Source: Oscillospiraceae bacterium (GTDB lineage Bacteria > Bacillota > Clostridia > Oscillospirales > CAG-272). Taken from it: a stretch of DNA of 64,000 nt. The notes under the pieces are model-generated. The model was not told the origin of the DNA. It did not search any database and saw only the letters and a list, made by a program, of their open reading frames with translations. Position 1 is the stretch's first letter. The number at the start of each line of letters is the position of its first letter. The stretch is taken from positions 36,734 through 100,733 of the forward strand of contig SVQY01000002.1 in NCBI GenBank assembly GCA_015065135.1. Reading direction: 5' to 3'. Both the position numbers and the translations under genes were made by a program. This document shows, piece after piece, positions 31,604-47,820 of the stretch.

Positions 31604-31677
31604 GCAGGCATAGTCTAGTGGTAAAACCTCAGCTTCCCAAGCTGATGCTGCGGGTTCGATTCCCGTTGCCTGCTCCA
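31604..31677 (+). tRNA. tRNA-Gly (anticodon CCC), CCA encoded
   Basis: GCAGGCA/TGCCTGC acceptor, anticodon stem TCAGC-TTCCCAA-GCTGA, T-arm GCGGGTTCGATTCCCGT, discriminator U + CCA. Confidence 0.96.
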
Positions 31678-38195: not shown

Positions 38196-38423
38196 CTATC
38201 CTTTTAACTTTGGGAATAAATACAAATCTTGTGTTGCGATTTCAAAGCGATCAAACGGCTTGGTGAGACCAACATCGGTATAGAGCGATTCTACCTCACA
38301 ATCCGCAAGCGAAAGATTACGGCGGGTGTTGTGCAGCCATTCAAAAAATTCATTGGTGTCAAACCATTCCCCTTTTGGATGCCGGAACTTATATCCGGCG
38401 AGATGCACGGTGATTTTGTTCAT
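38196..38423 (-). CDS. Moron-like small protein (75 aa), unknown function
   Basis: Reverse orientation within late genes, own consensus promoter and terminator; MNKITVHLAGYKFRHPKGEWFDTNEFFEWLHNTRRNLSLADCEVESLYTDVGLTKPFDRFEIATQDLYLFPKLKG. Confidence 0.8.
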   Translation of the reverse strand: MNKITVHLAGYKFRHPKGEWFDTNEFFEWLHNTRRNLSLADCEVESLYTDVGLTKPFDRFEIATQDLYLFPKLKG

Positions 38424-38455
38424 ACATAACCCTCGCTTTTTCTTGCATTACTCAC

Positions 38456-38484
38456 ATTATAAAACCACTTCCGAAAATTGTCAA
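38456..38484 (-). promoter_or_regulatory. Perfect-consensus SigA promoter driving the moron-like gene
   Basis: Minus strand TTGACA (38484-38479), 17-bp spacer, TATAAT (38461-38456), 33 bp before the ATG at 38423. Confidence 0.9.
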
Positions 38485-38493
38485 GGAGATTTT

Positions 38494-41400
38494 ATGGCAA
38501 AATTAAAAGTAGATATCACGAAGCCTATGGGCAGTAGGCAGAACAGTCAGAATAAATTGGTATTTGACCCCAGCGCGAATGACCGGCGGTACATATCCGG
38601 CGCGGAGTACCTCGGCGGCAAGCTGGTGTCGGGTGCGATCAGCATCCCCATCGGCGCTTACAATCTGATCGCCGGCACCTTTGATCAGCTGGCGGGGAAC
38701 AGCTATGCCGCGCAGAAGCGGTATGCGGAGAACAGCGCCACCTTCCTTTCCAAAAGGATGGACGAGGAGTACAAGCCGGACGGCTTTATGCAATTCACGG
38801 GTGCCGTGGCGGAGGGTGTGGGACAGATGGTGCCCACGCTGCTGATCTCGCTGATCCCCCACGTAGGCACCCCTATTGCCCAGGGGCTGCAATTTGCGGG
38901 CTACATGGGCATGAACGTAGAGGATGCGGCGAACACCACCGGCAACCTCGGCTGGCAGGAATACACCTACGGCGCGCTGCTGGGCGGCTTTGAGACCGCT
39001 CTGGAGGCGGTAGGCGGCAAGGTGGGCGGCTGGATCGGCGGCACCAAGGTCTTTAACGTAGCCAAGGGTGCTGCCACGAAGGGCGCCACCTCCGCTGCTG
39101 CCAAGGCGGGAAAGCTGGGTGTGGCGACTGTGGGCGCCAATATGCTGAAGGGCGGCGCGACCGAGTTTACCGAGGAGTTTATCGAGGCATACGGTGAGGT
39201 ATTCCTGCAGCGTGCGCTGCAGATAAACCCCGATGCGCAGTACTCCTTTCAGGATGCCCTGTACGCAGGCGCGGTGGGCTTTGCCGCCGGTGCCTCGATC
39301 TCCGGTGCGGGCTCTACCCTGAACACCACCGCCAGCCGCCTTGCCGGCAAGCGCGTGATGGATGCCGGGGAGGCGGACCTGACGGTTGCCGCTGCCACCG
39401 AGATCTCTACGGCATTTCAGGCAACGGGCGAGATGCAGAATGCCGCCCTGAAGGTCCTGCAGGACAACCTTGTCGCGTGGGAGCATACCGCCGACAAGAG
39501 CGGTGCGCAGGCACAGATGATACTGGGTAACATCCGCAACGCCATGACCGTTTGCGAAAACTACGCCGCCCAGCGCGGCACCTACGATGCGGTGACGAAG
39601 AACCCCGAGAAGTTCCTGCCCTACGCAAGGGCTTTGTTTGGGGAGCAGATCACCGCAGAGGATCTGAAAAGCCCGGACAGCACGATCGTGCGCTACATAG
39701 CCGCCGCTAACTGGGCGACCGGTGAGGTGAACAAGTGGCAGGTGCGCGCCGAGCGTGCCCGTATGGCAGAGGAGGTCGCCCGCATCAAGGAGGGCAGGCA
39801 GCAGGCGCTGCACGTCTCCGAGGCGGATTGGAACGGGGAGAGTGCCGTTTATGAGGTCGCCGCGGGCACCTATGCCTTTGTGACCGGCAAGGGCGGCAAT
39901 TACACCGTGATGGTGGGCCCCGATACCGAGCACGTGCAGGCCTATGCGGACAAGGAGGGCAGCAACGTGCTGTCGAAGGAGCAGGTGGCGGCGCTGCTTG
40001 CCGCCTTCAAGCGAGGGGAGGCCCCCATGGTGGCACCCGACGGGAAGGAGCAAGCCCCCGCGAGCCGCGCCGAGGAGGGTGCGGAGGAGGCATACGACGG
40101 CTATTTTGAAAAGGATGCCGAGCAAGCCGAAAAGGACGGTGCCAAGGACGGCGAGGGAGATGCCAAGCAGGCGCTGGGGGAGGAAGCTCCCGACATCGAA
40201 GAAAGCGCCGAAAAAGCCCCCGAAAAAGCCCCCGAAAAGGAAGCGGAAAGGGCGGACGGGGACAAGACTGCCGCCCCTGCGGAAAAGCCGAAGAAAACGG
40301 GCGTTACGGGCAAGCGGGATCTGCTGCTTGCCTCCTACGGCTCGGACGTGAAGGCGCGTGCCGCCAAGCTGGTGAAGGGCATTGAGACCCTTTCCGCAGA
40401 GAGACGTGCGGCGATCTACGAGACCGTCTCCTCCGCCACCAATATCGACAAGGAAAGCCTTGCCGCCGCCTGCGCCTTTGAGGCGGGCAGACCCGGGCTG
40501 GTGCTTTACTTTAACAGTGATATGAACAAGGAGGGCAGCGCCCACAAGGGCGCACAGAAGGTCTTTGCCTCCGGTGCCCGTGTGGTGGCAGTCGCCAAGG
40601 GCATTGAGGGCGTAAAAAGCGTGCTTGTGCATGAGCTGTTCCACGACGTGCGCGCCGCCGGTGTGGGCCTGCAGCTGGAGCGGCTTGCCATTGCCACCGG
40701 TGACGCGGCGCGGATGGAGGAGACCGCCAAGCGGTATTGCGATCACTTTGCCGCGCGCTATGGGACCGCCACCCTTGAGGAGTTCCGGAAGGCGGGGGAT
40801 TACAAGACGATCCTTGACATGGTATACGCCTTTGACGAGAAATACAAGGATCAGCTGAAGGGGCAGTCCCTTGCCGAGGAGGTCGCCGCCGTTGAGATCG
40901 GTGAAAAGCTTGGCACCAAGCGCTTTATGCGCCGCCTGGCGCTCTCGGAGGCGATGGCGGGAAAGAAGGGACTCCTGCGCCGTATTTTTGCCCGTATGAG
41001 GGCGATGATGGCGCGGTACGGCTGCCGCCTTTACCCCACACATCTCGGCACCCTGGAGCACGCCTATCTGATGGCGGTGCGGGATGCCCGTGTGGCAGAG
41101 GCGATCAAGGAGCTGACCGAGATCAGTGCCAGGAGCGGCAACGTCTTTTTCTCACTGAAGGAGAAGGACCGCATCAACGAGAGATCGAGAAAATACTACG
41201 AGAGCAACAGGGGCAAGAATCCGCAGCTGGATGACGGCATGATCGCCGCGGCAGAGGAGGACATTGAGCGCATTGCAGAGGAAATGCTGCAGTACATGGA
41301 TATTCTGAACAACGAGGGTAAGCGCTATCTGCCCGAGGAGGTGCTTGGCAGCACCATCTTTGCCAACGGCAGCTACGGCAAGACCGTTGAGAACACCACC

Positions 41401-44400
41401 ATCTGCTATCGCACCCTTGCCTACAACGACTTTGTGGACGAGGTGAAAAAGCAGATCGGCAGACCGCTGACCGTGAAAGAATCCTTCCTTGCCTCCCAGA
41501 TGCTGTATGAGATCGCCAAGGAGCCCCAGTGCCTTTACTGCTACGTCTCCCTTGACCGCAAGGCGTATGACGAGGCGCTGCTCTCTTACCTTGCCCAGCG
41601 GGACGAGGTGCTGCGGCTGTACGCAAAGAGCGACAAGTCCGCCGCAGCCAAGGCAGAGCTGTATCAGCACTTTTTGCGGATGCGCTACGACGCGGAGGGG
41701 AACAGCATCACCTCCGGCACGAAGCGCAAGGACACGAGAGAAATGAGTGAGCGCTTTTATGCCTGGCTGAAGGCTGCCGACGACGGCAAGCGGGCGGTGA
41801 CCCATGCGGATATTGCCACCGCGGAGCGGCGCAGCGAGATCGTTGCCGCCGGCGGAAATGCCGCAGGGCAGGTGCTGGATGTGGAGAAATATGCGCAGTC
41901 TGCCTCCTGGGCGAAGAAAAGCGAATCCTACCGCTCCTACAACGGTGAGATCCTGAAAATGGGGGAGCGCACCGTGAGGCGGCTGAATGCCCATTACGGA
42001 CTCCGCTTCTACTCCTTCAGCGAGTATACCGCCGCCTTTATCGTGGAAAATATGCAGCAGATCCGCGATGCCTCGCTGCGGGGACTGAAGGGCTTGGCTT
42101 ACACCAAGAAGGCGGATTTTGCCCGCATTTTTGCCCCCACGGGCATGGGCATCAATATGTCGGTATTCGGCAAGCAGGACGCGGACGGCAACGTGGTGGA
42201 GGATTCGCTGCAGGGTGCCGCCTGGGAGGAGGTCAAGGCGCTGCGGGAAAAGCACCGCAACGTAGGTGCCGTATTCGTTGCCACCAACGACGCGCTGGTG
42301 GACTGGGCGCTGAAGCAGGACTGGATAGACGTGGTGATCCCGTTCCATATCGTGCGCACCGGTGCCAACGTGGCGGAGTTTTACAAGTGGACAAACTACA
42401 GCGGCGAGCAGGCGGACGTGACGAGCGAGGGCAAGAGCCTTTACATCTCCCCCGTGGAGCACAACAACGACAAGGCGCGCTTTCTTGAGCTTTGCCGTGA
42501 GCGCGGCATCAAGCCCCGATTTGAAAAGTGGGTGCAGGACCCCAATTACATGAAGCTGGTGAACGAGACCCGACTCGCCGTTTCCGAAACGACACCTTTG
42601 GTGCCCGTGTTTGACGCGGGTGCCGCGCTGCGCTCCTTCAGACAGTTTGTGAAGGAGGGCGGCTATTACGGTGACTGGTACCGCGAGGGGGCCGACTATG
42701 CCGCCGCGGTGGAGCAGGTGGCTGCCGACGTGCTTGCGGGCAGAGCCGCCAACGAGGTGGAGTACGGCAGGCAGGACCGTCTGGAGGCGATGCAGAATGC
42801 CGACCGCAGACAGCATCGCAGGCACGAGAGCGATGCGAAGCTGGATCTGGGGGAGGAAAACAAAAAAGCTCCCGCTGACGGGGAGACGAAATACAGTATC
42901 GGCGCAACGGAAGACGGTCACAAGTATGTTGCGTTGGATGGGAATCTTTTTCTAAAAAAAGATGGCACGGAAATGACTCCGAAGGAAGCGTACAATGCAC
43001 TTGTGGGGCAAAAAATAATGCTGGAAGACGGAGATGTCATTACCTTTGTCAAAAACCTTCACGGAAAGAAACTATACAATGAATTGTTTAGAAAACTTCC
43101 GGGATATGAGGAAGGCATAGATGTTAGGGCAATAAGCGAATCTATCAATCGGAATATCTTGGAAGTTGTCTCCGCTTCTAATGCACAAACAAGAAACGAG
43201 TCGCAAAGGCATCCGCACGTGGATATAAAGGATTTTGACCAAAGAGAAGTATATGTAACCGATGGCAATGAGGTTTATAGACTTGAACTTTGTATTGCAA
43301 ATTTGACGGATGGCACGAAAATAGCATACGTAAAGAGGTATATAGAGAAGGCCGAGAGAGTGATTGCAGACAAAATAAAAAAGGCCGAAACGGCGAGGCA
43401 ATCTCCCCTGAATCGACCTTCTGATAACAGTATACCACAAAATTCCGAAAAGTCAACACCTTCGGCGCAAAAAAATGCGGAAAATGATGCCAAGGGCGCC
43501 CTCGGGGACGGCAAGGAGGGGCGCGTGCCCAGCAGGGGCATGACCCAGCGCAGGATCGCAAACGCCTCCCGCTGGCGGGTGTACGATCGGAAGGAGATCG
43601 CCGCCATTGTGGAGGGGCTGCTGGCGGACGATGCCTACAATGCCGAGGGCTTTGAGATCCGCCTTTCCGGCATGAATCGGGAGGAGCTGATCGATTACCT
43701 TTGGGAAAAGGTGAACAGCACCGATGCGGAATATCTGCCCCGCGTTTACGAAAAGATCGCCGACTTTGTGCTGACAAACGCGCTGGTGGAGCAGGTGGAA
43801 TTTGACTCCTATGAGGAGGCGGCGCTGGAGACGGCGCAAGCCACCCACCGCGTGCTTGCGGACTATCGGCACAAGCTGGACCTTACCCCCCTTGCGGCGG
43901 AGATCCGCCACAAATACGATAAGAAGGGCGCACGCTCGGTGGTCTCCCGCTGGCACAAAAAGGGCGGGCTTTCGGTGGACGGCATCGTTGCCAACATCAA
44001 CGAGGAGCTGCGTGCCGAGGGCTCGGACGTGCAGCTGACCGAGGACGCGCACCCCAGCGAGATCCTTTCCGAGATCATTGCCGCCTTCGACCGCTCGGTG
44101 GACACCATCAAGGAGCATTTTGACACGGAATCCTCTCTGCAGTTTTCCTCCGAGGAGGATATGCTCGCCTTCCGTGACAAGGTGAAGCGGCGACTGTTTG
44201 AGGGCGTGAAAAACGCGGGCAAGGAAACAAAGCACGCCCGCTTTGCCCAAAACTATGAGCGCGTGATCCTGGAGCTGCGCAAGCGGATGAAGCAGCAGAG
44301 GCGGGAGCTGGAGGCTGCCACCGGCAAGCAGAACGTCTATGCGCTGGCGGTGATCCGCGCCCGTGAGCTTGCCGAAATGGTGAAGCAGCGCAAATATGTG

Positions 44401-47400
44401 GGCGCCGAGCATCTGGTCGCCCCCGAGATGAAGGCGATGGCACAGCTGCTCTCCAAGCTCGCCACCCTGCGCGGCATCAAGGATCCCGAGACCAGAGAGG
44501 TCATGAAGACCCTGCGCAGCTGGTACCTGCCGCAGAACGTCTGCCCCGATCAGGTGGACGGGGAGGGCAAGGCTGCCGACGGCTCCATCTACCGTGAGGA
44601 GATCGCCCGCATGATCGCGCTGATCGCGGACGGAGACGGCTTTCTTTCGGTGGCGGAGGTGAAGGATCTTGCCGCCATTCTGGGACACATCCGCAAGATC
44701 TACACCACCTATGACCGCGTTGTGATCGAGGGCAGGGCAGCATCGCTGGAGGCGACCGCCGGGGCACAGATCGAGCTGCTGCAGAAATACCTTGCCCTTG
44801 ACGAGAAGCGGAAGGTCAAATTCGTTGCCTTTCTGGAGAAGATGCGCAACGGTTATCTGTTCCAGACCCTTTCCCCCAGGCAGGTGCTGGAGACGCTGGA
44901 CTTTTTCGACAAGGACGGCGTGCTGCACCGTCTGTTTGCGGACATTCAGGGGGGCGTTGCCGGCGCCAACAGCGATTACGCGGATATGATGGCGCCCGTG
45001 ATCGGCTTTCTGGATCAGCACAAAAAATACGGCAAGCGGCTCTCGGGGGAGCGCATTGACTATGAGGGAGCCTCCATCACCTACGGACAAGCCATTGCCC
45101 TGTACCTGACCACCTTCCGCGAGCAGGCGCGCCTCGGACTGGAGGAGACCGGCATTTCCTTTATGGGAAAGGACGGCAGGGTGCAAAAGCTGGGCGGACG
45201 TGCCGTGAAGGATATCCGCACCGATCTGGAGGGGCGCTTTAACGATACCGACAGGGAATACATTGCCGTGATCAAGGCGTTGTTCCGGAGAGCGGGCGAG
45301 CTGAAGGTGCAGGCGGATACCGAGATCTTCGGCTTTACCAACGTGGAGGGCGGCTTCTATTTTCCCATTGTGCGCGATGCCATGGGGCGCGCCTCCAAGA
45401 CCTCGGATTTCCGCCAAGCCATGCGGGATGCCGCCGTGGTGGCGAACAAATCCTTTAACCAGAACATCAAGGAGGGCGCCAAGGGCAGACTGATGATCGG
45501 GGACGTGACCGAGATCGCCAACGCCCACGCCCGCGGCGTGGCACAGTATGCCAATCTCTTTACCCCCCTGCAGTCCTTTGACCGCGTCTGGAACAAGCAG
45601 ATCGAGGGGAAGGACGGCAAGCTGACCGTGCGCGAGCTGGTGAACGACCGCCTTTGGGCGAAGAAGGGGGAGCGCGGGCAGGCGGACAAGTACCTGCAAA
45701 AGCTCTTTTCCGATATTCAGGAGGTGGGCGCGCCCAAGGACGTGGGAGACGAGATCTACGGCAAGCTCCGCTCCGCCTACGTGTCGGCCGCCCTCGGACT
45801 GAACCTTTCCTCCTGCCTGAAGCAGTTTGGCTCCTACGGCTCCGCGCTGGTCTATCTGGATCCCGCAGACCTGCTGCGGGGCAGCGTGATGCGCGCCGAC
45901 ACGGCGAAGATGCGCCAATACTCCAAGGTGGCAAACGGCAGATTGTTTGACCGCTCTACCGTTCTTTCCGCCGAGACGAACCTTTCAAGAGACCCGTTCT
46001 CGGACGGTATCGGCAAAATGCAGGAGCTGGTGACGGCACCCGTGGAGAAGGCGGACACCCTGGTGGTGACCCGCCTGTGGAACGCCTGTCAGGTGAACGT
46101 GGAGCGCCGCCGGGGATATGCCATTGGCAGCGAGGAGAACCTGATCGCCGCCGGCAAGCTGCTGGACCGCGCCATCAACGACACCCAGTCCACCAACACG
46201 GCGGACACCCGCTCCGGCTTTCAGCGGGGCGGCAAGGTGATGCAGACCCTGACCATGTTTACCTCCGACTCGGTGAAGACCGTTTCCTACCTTTACGAGG
46301 GCGTGATGCGGATGTACTTTGCAAGGCAGCGCGTGAAGATGGGGATCGGCTCCGCCACGGAGGTAAAAGAAGCCAAGCGGTTTGCCGCGCGGGCGCTGTT
46401 CGCCTTCCTTTCCTCCACAGCCATTACCGTGGCGGTGATCCAGCTGATCAAATGGCTGCTGAAGCGGGACCGCGAGGAGGGGGAGACCCTTGCCGCGGAC
46501 GTTGGCGGCGAGGTGGTGGGACACATCCTTTCCATGTTCCCCCTGGTCTCCGACGTATACGATCTGCTTGCCAACGGCTATGAGATCGAGAACTTTGCCC
46601 TTGACACCGTGAACACCCTTGCCAAGACCGCCGCATCGGTGACCGAGACGGCTGTTGCCGCCGCAAGCGGGGAGCACGTGGACGAGAAAAAGCTTGCCTC
46701 CACCGTGAAGAACGCGGTGGTGGCGATCAGCAACGTGGTCGGCTTGCCCACAAGGAACGTGCACAATTACGTGACCGGTCTGATGAAGCGCTTTCTCGGC
46801 TCCTCTACCTACGGCTACACCTCCCTTTTTGAAAGCGACACCTATGCTGCCGACCTGCAGCAGGCGGTGGACGAGGGGGACGATCGCCTTGCCGAGAGCG
46901 TGCTGGAGATCCTTGCCGCAAGGGAGCAGGGCGGTGTGCTGCATCAGGGCGCCGCTGCGGAGCTGCTTTACCTTTACAAGGCAGGGCATGACGTGGTCGG
47001 CAGCGGCATTCCGAAGACCTATGACGGCAGGAAGGTGACCGCCGCCGAGCGCAAGAGACTGGCACGTGTTTACGGCAAGAGCAATGCCGTACTGGAGGAG
47101 CTGGTGGCGAGCGACCTCTATGCGGGTCTTGAGGACAAGGAAAAGGCAAGAGCCATTCAGCTGACCTACAGCACCTATCTTGCCGCTGCCAAGACCGAGG
47201 TTTACGGCGCAAAGCCGAAGGACAGCGCGATGATGGCGCAGCTGATCGAGCCCCACGTGCTGATGGCGACCCTGGGCAGGATAGACCTTTTGGAAAGTGA
47301 CGATCGGCAGACCCGCGCCGAGAAGGTGACGGCGTACCTGAACACCCTTGACCTTTCCGCAGATGAGAAATACGTGATCCTGTACGCTGCCGGCTATGAC

Positions 47401-47490
47401 AACAAAACAGTCAAGGCGGCGGTGACGAGGATCGCCAAGGCGAAGCTGCAGGGCGACGCACTGCAGGCGCTGCTTGCCGAAATGGCATAG
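38494..47490 (+). CDS. Giant phage polyvalent virion protein (2998 aa) with zincin metalloprotease motif and C-terminal hydrophobic/TM regions
   Basis: SD AAGGAG before ATG 38494; hydrophobic N-terminal region; VLVHELFHDVRAAG (HExxH); KEPQCLYCYVSLDRKAY domain; AT-rich inserted module; C-terminal RALFAFLSSTAITVAVIQLIKWLL. Confidence 0.85.
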   Translation: MAKLKVDITKPMGSRQNSQNKLVFDPSANDRRYISGAEYLGGKLVSGAISIPIGAYNLIAGTFDQLAGNSYAAQKRYAENSATFLSKRMDEEYKPDGFMQFTGAVAEGVGQMVPTLLISLIPHVGTPIAQGLQFAGYMGMNVEDAANTTGNLGWQEYTYGALLGGFETALEAVGGKVGGWIGGTKVFNVAKGAATKGATSAAAKAGKLGVATVGANMLKGGATEFTEEFIEAYGEVFLQRALQINPDAQYSFQDALYAGAVGFAAGASISGAGSTLNTTASRLAGKRVMDAGEADLTVAAATEISTAFQATGEMQNAALKVLQDNLVAWEHTADKSGAQAQMILGNIRNAMTVCENYAAQRGTYDAVTKNPEKFLPYARALFGEQITAEDLKSPDSTIVRYIAAANWATGEVNKWQVRAERARMAEEVARIKEGRQQALHVSEADWNGESAVYEVAAGTYAFVTGKGGNYTVMVGPDTEHVQAYADKEGSNVLSKEQVAALLAAFKRGEAPMVAPDGKEQAPASRAEEGAEEAYDGYFEKDAEQAEKDGAKDGEGDAKQALGEEAPDIEESAEKAPEKAPEKEAERADGDKTAAPAEKPKKTGVTGKRDLLLASYGSDVKARAAKLVKGIETLSAERRAAIYETVSSATNIDKESLAAACAFEAGRPGLVLYFNSDMNKEGSAHKGAQKVFASGARVVAVAKGIEGVKSVLVHELFHDVRAAGVGLQLERLAIATGDAARMEETAKRYCDHFAARYGTATLEEFRKAGDYKTILDMVYAFDEKYKDQLKGQSLAEEVAAVEIGEKLGTKRFMRRLALSEAMAGKKGLLRRIFARMRAMMARYGCRLYPTHLGTLEHAYLMAVRDARVAEAIKELTEISARSGNVFFSLKEKDRINERSRKYYESNRGKNPQLDDGMIAAAEEDIERIAEEMLQYMDILNNEGKRYLPEEVLGSTIFANGSYGKTVENTTICYRTLAYNDFVDEVKKQIGRPLTVKESFLASQMLYEIAKEPQCLYCYVSLDRKAYDEALLSYLAQRDEVLRLYAKSDKSAAAKAELYQHFLRMRYDAEGNSITSGTKRKDTREMSERFYAWLKAADDGKRAVTHADIATAERRSEIVAAGGNAAGQVLDVEKYAQSASWAKKSESYRSYNGEILKMGERTVRRLNAHYGLRFYSFSEYTAAFIVENMQQIRDASLRGLKGLAYTKKADFARIFAPTGMGINMSVFGKQDADGNVVEDSLQGAAWEEVKALREKHRNVGAVFVATNDALVDWALKQDWIDVVIPFHIVRTGANVAEFYKWTNYSGEQADVTSEGKSLYISPVEHNNDKARFLELCRERGIKPRFEKWVQDPNYMKLVNETRLAVSETTPLVPVFDAGAALRSFRQFVKEGGYYGDWYREGADYAAAVEQVAADVLAGRAANEVEYGRQDRLEAMQNADRRQHRRHESDAKLDLGEENKKAPADGETKYSIGATEDGHKYVALDGNLFLKKDGTEMTPKEAYNALVGQKIMLEDGDVITFVKNLHGKKLYNELFRKLPGYEEGIDVRAISESINRNILEVVSASNAQTRNESQRHPHVDIKDFDQREVYVTDGNEVYRLELCIANLTDGTKIAYVKRYIEKAERVIADKIKKAETARQSPLNRPSDNSIPQNSEKSTPSAQKNAENDAKGALGDGKEGRVPSRGMTQRRIANASRWRVYDRKEIAAIVEGLLADDAYNAEGFEIRLSGMNREELIDYLWEKVNSTDAEYLPRVYEKIADFVLTNALVEQVEFDSYEEAALETAQATHRVLADYRHKLDLTPLAAEIRHKYDKKGARSVVSRWHKKGGLSVDGIVANINEELRAEGSDVQLTEDAHPSEILSEIIAAFDRSVDTIKEHFDTESSLQFSSEEDMLAFRDKVKRRLFEGVKNAGKETKHARFAQNYERVILELRKRMKQQRRELEAATGKQNVYALAVIRARELAEMVKQRKYVGAEHLVAPEMKAMAQLLSKLATLRGIKDPETREVMKTLRSWYLPQNVCPDQVDGEGKAADGSIYREEIARMIALIADGDGFLSVAEVKDLAAILGHIRKIYTTYDRVVIEGRAASLEATAGAQIELLQKYLALDEKRKVKFVAFLEKMRNGYLFQTLSPRQVLETLDFFDKDGVLHRLFADIQGGVAGANSDYADMMAPVIGFLDQHKKYGKRLSGERIDYEGASITYGQAIALYLTTFREQARLGLEETGISFMGKDGRVQKLGGRAVKDIRTDLEGRFNDTDREYIAVIKALFRRAGELKVQADTEIFGFTNVEGGFYFPIVRDAMGRASKTSDFRQAMRDAAVVANKSFNQNIKEGAKGRLMIGDVTEIANAHARGVAQYANLFTPLQSFDRVWNKQIEGKDGKLTVRELVNDRLWAKKGERGQADKYLQKLFSDIQEVGAPKDVGDEIYGKLRSAYVSAALGLNLSSCLKQFGSYGSALVYLDPADLLRGSVMRADTAKMRQYSKVANGRLFDRSTVLSAETNLSRDPFSDGIGKMQELVTAPVEKADTLVVTRLWNACQVNVERRRGYAIGSEENLIAAGKLLDRAINDTQSTNTADTRSGFQRGGKVMQTLTMFTSDSVKTVSYLYEGVMRMYFARQRVKMGIGSATEVKEAKRFAARALFAFLSSTAITVAVIQLIKWLLKRDREEGETLAADVGGEVVGHILSMFPLVSDVYDLLANGYEIENFALDTVNTLAKTAASVTETAVAAASGEHVDEKKLASTVKNAVVAISNVVGLPTRNVHNYVTGLMKRFLGSSTYGYTSLFESDTYAADLQQAVDEGDDRLAESVLEILAAREQGGVLHQGAAAELLYLYKAGHDVVGSGIPKTYDGRKVTAAERKRLARVYGKSNAVLEELVASDLYAGLEDKEKARAIQLTYSTYLAAAKTEVYGAKPKDSAMMAQLIEPHVLMATLGRIDLLESDDRQTRAEKVTAYLNTLDLSADEKYVILYAAGYDNKTVKAAVTRIAKAKLQGDALQALLAEMA

Positions 47491-47491
47491 G

Positions 47492-47806
47492 TAGGGACAA
47501 GAGTGTGAGTTAAACACGCCCACAACCGCATTTTTCGGGCGTTTTCGCTTGCACTTTCCTTGTAAAGTCACACTTTGACTTCGTCAAGTGCAAGCCAAAC
47601 CACCTCGAAAACCCTCGCCCGTGGGTCGCAGAGCTCGGAGTAGGCGAATTTGTGTCAAGGCAAGGAAAAAGCCGACGGGAATATGTGGATATTGCCAAGG
47701 CTTTTGACACAGCATCGGCACATATTCGCCACTCCGAGCCGTGTTCAACTCACTCTCTTGTCCCTATGGGAGAGCCAAACAGTACTCCGTTTGGCTCTCC
47801 TTTTTT
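47492..47806 (+). ncRNA. Candidate structured non-coding RNA (closing stem + two long arms + terminator)
   Basis: P1 47492-47518/47741-47767 (25 of 27 paired); arm A 47536-47621; arm B 47634-47738; terminator 47769-47806. No convincing ORF. Confidence 0.6.
47769..47806 (+). terminator. Strong rho-independent terminator
   Basis: Perfect 12-bp stem GGAGAGCCAAAC-AGTACTCC-GTTTGGCTCTCC + TTTTTT. Confidence 0.92.
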
Positions 47807-47820
47807 CTTTTTCAAAAAAC

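Follow-up and report, generated by a model that had tools for sequence, protein, structure and literature searches.

MITE-like repeats with TA ends, such as Correia/NEMIS, ERIC/IRU and RUP, have mostly been described without an identified transposase (PMC2229807). ERIC and the Neisseria repeats affect mRNA, and RUP of pneumococcus is a MITE derived from the IS630/Tc1-mariner type (PMC2229807). REPINs are inverted doublets of REP sequences, and they are moved by RAYT tyrosine transposases (PMC3116915). The CIR repeats of Caulobacter/Brucella (PMC2229807) are dispersed repeats with two long arms, no end-to-end stem and a GANTC in a loop. Large folded RNAs, such as GOLLD and ROOL, are found in phages.

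Here, we analyse a strongly folded element in a 64,000-nucleotide stretch of an Oscillospiraceae genome (hereafter, the window). Like Correia/NEMIS, ERIC/IRU and RUP, the element is non-coding, intergenic and strongly folded, has terminal inverted repeats with TA ends and comes with a target duplication. Unlike these repeats (all under 200 bp), it is 278 bp long, forms a three-way junction with two mirrored arms, and has an interior conserved across subfamilies while the terminal sequence varies. It shares with REPINs an inverted pair of strand-specific hairpins and copies that are both dispersed and in tandem, but it lacks the GTAG (or CGTC) tag (its ends are TA plus subfamily-specific letters), is much longer, has long terminal repeats with TA and shows no association with Y1/RAYT genes. 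The two long arms within a dispersed repeat recall CIR, although here both arms stand on a 25-pair stem, P1. A large fold and a phage context are shared with GOLLD and ROOL; unlike those RNAs, the element has no Rfam match, is dispersed in chromosomes and is not strand-specific as a whole. Since it has no partner transposase, no GTAG tag and no RAYT, it belongs to neither named subtype (IS630-type MITE or REPIN) by the criteria applied. No published description was found in literature searches (ISfinder was not among the sources), and the family appears to be undescribed. We consider it very probable that this is a non-autonomous mobile DNA element of such a family, MITE-like at its ends (27-bp inverted repeats and TA target duplication) and REPIN-like inside (two inverted hairpin arms).

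The window belongs to a chromosomal contig. Its left part, as far as a tRNA-Gly at 31604, encodes host functions (V-type ATPase, sugar enzymes). Past this tRNA lie the genes for terminase, portal and major capsid, which identify the right part of the window as a prophage. As a preliminary description of this DNA had stated, the element lies between a giant gene and the capsid operon, with its strong fold adjoining the latter (Table 1). It starts 2 nt past the point where the giant ORF (38326-47490) ends with its stop codon, and its limits, which run from P1 to P1', are those of the full copies found by BLAST in two same-genus relatives, G018 (three copies) and G009, and conform to the family's TA rule.

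Table 1. Coordinates of the element, its parts and the adjoining hairpin in the window.
Feature	Position	Strand	Remarks
Whole mobile element	47492..47766	.	275 bp including TA at both ends
Left terminal inverted repeat (5' strand of P1)	47492..47518	+	27 bp; starts with the TA of the target duplication
Arm A	47519..47626	-	inverted counterpart of arm B; hairpin arm that takes its stable form on the bottom strand
Arm B	47633..47739	+	hairpin arm; internal-loop letters conserved (CAAGGCAAGG...TTTTGACACAGCAT); match to covariance model R1 over this span
Right terminal inverted repeat (3' strand of P1)	47740..47766	+	TA at its end
Intrinsic terminator-like hairpin	47768..47801	+	outside the element; 13 pairs, then a T tract

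The helices originally picked out by eye were confirmed. The left strand of P1, the helices of arm B and the inner pairs of arm A (in agreement with the MFE fold) are all present, and the base helix of arm A (CCCAC at about 47520 with GTGGG at about 47621) is backed by covariation. The right strand of P1 pairs as proposed, one base upstream of the 47741-47767 first assigned to it. The terminator-like hairpin is also present, with 13 pairs and a T tract. Full copies elsewhere stop at the TA preceding the position of this hairpin, which places it outside the mobile unit. A 33-bp promoter-like repeat said to follow could not be found: one 21-nt stretch downstream occurs a single time in the window, and no sigma-70-like site was seen.

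The RNA MFE of positions 47480-47820 is -157.2 kcal/mol against -92.5 +/- 4.7 kcal/mol in 100 dinucleotide shuffles, none of which is as low (z = -13.7), which bears out the description of the element as large and highly structured. Aligned over their full length, 23 non-redundant elements share a consensus fold of 89 pairs, in which the 25-pair P1, arm A and arm B are arranged round a three-way junction. Compensatory (double) changes, proposed earlier as the check to make in homologues, occur at 79 of these 89 pairs, and none of 500 shuffles reaches any of the measures; within P1, 23 of the 25 pairs covary. In the same alignment, 91.9% of cells are paired (68.8% in shuffles), and at most 46% are paired when the partners are slid by 1-3 columns. 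When arm B of 12 divergent elements is aligned on its own, 37 consensus pairs emerge, and 30 of these show compensatory double changes; this alignment yielded the covariance model R1, which matches arm B of the window with 103.9 bits. Because the covariation goes far beyond that of the 500 shuffles and of the slid partners, the structure of the element is under selection. As covarying folds of bacterial mobile repeats go, this is one of the better documented. Rfam gave no match at the gathering score to the element in the window or in 20 relatives (below that score, chance-level hits only) and none to the element at the E-value threshold, in keeping with the earlier statement that it could not be assigned to a known class.

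The source genome has one copy only, located in the prophage. A second, weak match in this genome (C48) resembles a terminator hairpin and was rejected as a copy. Partial copies in relatives break off where the contig does, which is usual for repeats in draft assemblies. Matches of R1 to arm B occur in 35 of 120 relatives; G018 has at least 31 and G162 at least 32. The genomes searched are draft MAGs, which lose repeats. Tandem copies lie 276 bp apart and have one TA in common. The family spans an order of gut bacteria: in a phylum-wide sample of 400 genomes, strong R1 matches occur only within the order, and presence is patchy among close species. BLASTN against phages, plasmids and E. coli genomes returned no credible match to the element, and 5,426 E. 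coli genomes contained no sequence match to it. The copies are intergenic, with the nearest ORF at a median of 49-80 bp. At 70 distinct sites, the flanking ORFs were in the same orientation (18), opposite (17), convergent (21) or divergent (14), so there is no orientation bias relative to the flanking genes (18 versus 17). Random orientation fits a mobile element and lends no support to a fixed cis-regulatory role.

The 93 elements with clear inverted ends are mostly 276-282 bp long, with an architecture of about 278 bp. A TA stands at the start and end of elements in the genus and in several relatives, though the terminal repeats vary by subfamily (TAGGGACAAGAG, TAGGCAAGAG, TAGCCGAAGG, TAGCCGCACGG, TAAGGTGAGG); the interior is conserved more than the terminal repeats across subfamilies. 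Elements of 275-282 bp contain no transposase gene, their longest stop-free stretch being about 40-100 codons. To search for empty sites, the joined flanks of twelve elements were queried against the genus. One near-identical clean empty site was found: G014 has a single TA where G020, another species, has TA-element-TA (a 278-bp element), and the flanks are 98% identical over 302 bp. The element is also missing from further relatives (74-88% identity), most of whose junctions have drifted. The difference between G014 and G020 argues that the element moves; it is the expected result for an element that moves and duplicates TA, and insertion of the element together with a TA beside an existing TA would look alike. 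The element thus combines the features by which MITEs are judged, namely terminal inverted repeats, an empty site, multiple dispersed copies and no internal transposase. Dispersed copies with a target-site duplication had been named in the preliminary description as the pattern that would make the element a MITE, and this is the pattern seen. Miniature deletion forms of about 33-75 bp, mostly terminal repeats with TA ends, were also seen at five loci.

The two arms differ in strand polarity. Among 31 non-redundant families, every one has an arm B that folds more stably as the top strand (31/31; mean -10.2 kcal/mol; p about 1e-6), a bias possibly helped by R1 having been built on that strand. 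Arm A folds more stably on the bottom strand in 29/31 families (mean 9.4; p about 3e-6), and this bias is independent since arm A was not modelled. The mismatch types agree with the polarity, with G.U:A.C ratios of 62:18 in arm B, 8:20 in arm A and 23:19 in P1. For the whole element, the MFE shows no strand preference (p = 0.18). The arm B model recognises bottom-strand arm A in relatives (G162 and G147, up to 59 bits) and weakly in the window (12.7 bits), and the arms are therefore inverted counterparts. With arms of opposite polarity, no single strand bears the functional fold, so that an RNA gene on one strand is a poorer fit than a DNA element of the MITE/REPIN-like kind.

These results bear on the first interpretation of the locus as a phage ncRNA. 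A phage-encoded large structured RNA (GOLLD/ROOL-like) serving the phage would suit a strong fold adjoining the capsid operon, but we regard it as extremely improbable. The element lacks an Rfam match, and its opposite-strand arms count against a phage ncRNA because they are not predicted for a single-strand RNA gene. Moreover, in the nearest related prophage, that of G018 (its capsid is 64% identical), the capsid operon is not preceded by an element, though the G018 genome carries its many copies elsewhere. The dispersed chromosomal copies and the empty site contradict this interpretation. Hunts for phage ncRNAs by fold and covariation would mistake the element for an RNA gene.

A mobile element whose fold is kept as RNA is a possibility with some standing, albeit an unlikely one. 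Read-through transcripts from either side would fold into the same junction, and this junction would govern how mRNA is processed, how stable it is or where it terminates, an effect reported for ERIC and NEMIS repeats; the mirrored arms would let the element work in both orientations. The top strand of arm B tolerates G.U far more than A.C, as RNA would, the arrangement is symmetric on both strands, the elements sit between genes at the short distances given above, and ERIC and the Neisseria repeats act on mRNA (PMC2229807). The lack of any orientation or convergent/divergent preference speaks against an RNA role, as does the patchy occurrence among close species. The G.U versus A.C asymmetry of arm B was dropped as proof of RNA, given that the arm A bias runs the opposite way. 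The mirrored, strand-specific arms make the question of a DNA fold versus an RNA fold directly testable.

Candidates for a partner transposase were sought in the relatives. The IS630-type transposase (DDE_3, PF13358) is absent from 21 same-genus genomes and was rejected on that ground. Y1 transposases, including RAYT-like ones, show no association with the element (18/35 against 36/85, p = 0.42), no element lies within 1.5 kb of the Y1 genes of the genus, and G018 has no Y1 transposase despite its high copy number; with neither co-occurrence nor adjacency, Y1/RAYT was rejected as well. A pattern search for a longer autonomous relative, covering one inverted-repeat subfamily, gave short deletion forms only. 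Terminal-repeat pattern searches for an autonomous partner with the same ends returned copies, deletion forms and solo inverted repeats from these incomplete drafts.

The terminal inverted repeats and TA duplication would be shared by an ordinary IS630/Tc1-mariner MITE that arose by internal deletion, as in the case of RUP of pneumococcus (PMC2229807), with the fold a by-product of palindromic DNA. We find this quite unlikely, as the interior outlasts the terminal repeats between subfamilies, unlike that of a deletion derivative. The covariation and the strand polarity of the arms also argue against it, together with the missing DDE_3 transposase in the 21 genomes.

For the favoured MITE- and REPIN-like DNA element, a transposase supplied in trans would recognise the ends and, at each terminus, the hairpin arm of the strand whose 3' end lies there. 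We propose that this transposase reads the folded arms, and this would account for the persistence of the fold where the terminal sequence has diverged among subfamilies. Going further, the element could represent a distinct class of transposable element, whose substrate is a folded single-stranded form with mirrored arms on opposite strands; this is a tentative idea that we rate as unlikely. Such a class would descend from an older stand-alone hairpin repeat, and its putative mobilising enzyme would also duplicate TA. Outside the order, arm-B-like hairpins occur on their own, and one single-contig genome has three. This suggests that an older hairpin repeat, paired with itself in inverted orientation, may have given rise to the element.

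The prophage copy may have come from a related species and have inserted recently between the giant gene and its terminator. Since the element lies between the stop of the ORF and the terminator, the gene has probably been separated from its own terminator; the hairpin at 47768-47801 is most likely this terminator, split from the stop codon by the insertion. Carriage by a prophage is a plausible way for the element to spread: the rest of the host genome lacks it, and related species have it in abundance. The ORF itself (3054 aa) has no Pfam match and one match to the unannotated giant PHROG phrog_22978. The ORF does not occur immediately before the capsid operon of the related prophage in G018 and may for this reason be accessory.

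Several minor observations were made in the relatives. An Rfam match to the pemK RNA motif (48 bits; L078 1697-1900 in G164) adjoins a copy of arm B. RAYT-like genes were noted at six loci, several of them beside a conserved gene with a product that resembles the GTPase Der at its start; this Der-like gene has variable inserted peptides (GAIHESPA, GEGLAPP, GDGALDVP), suggesting in-frame repeat insertions. Finally, seven loci outside the order but within the same phylum hold stand-alone, dispersed 90-nt hairpins resembling arm B, which carry its internal-loop motif (GYYARRCAAGG ... TTTTGACRCAGYATGRC).
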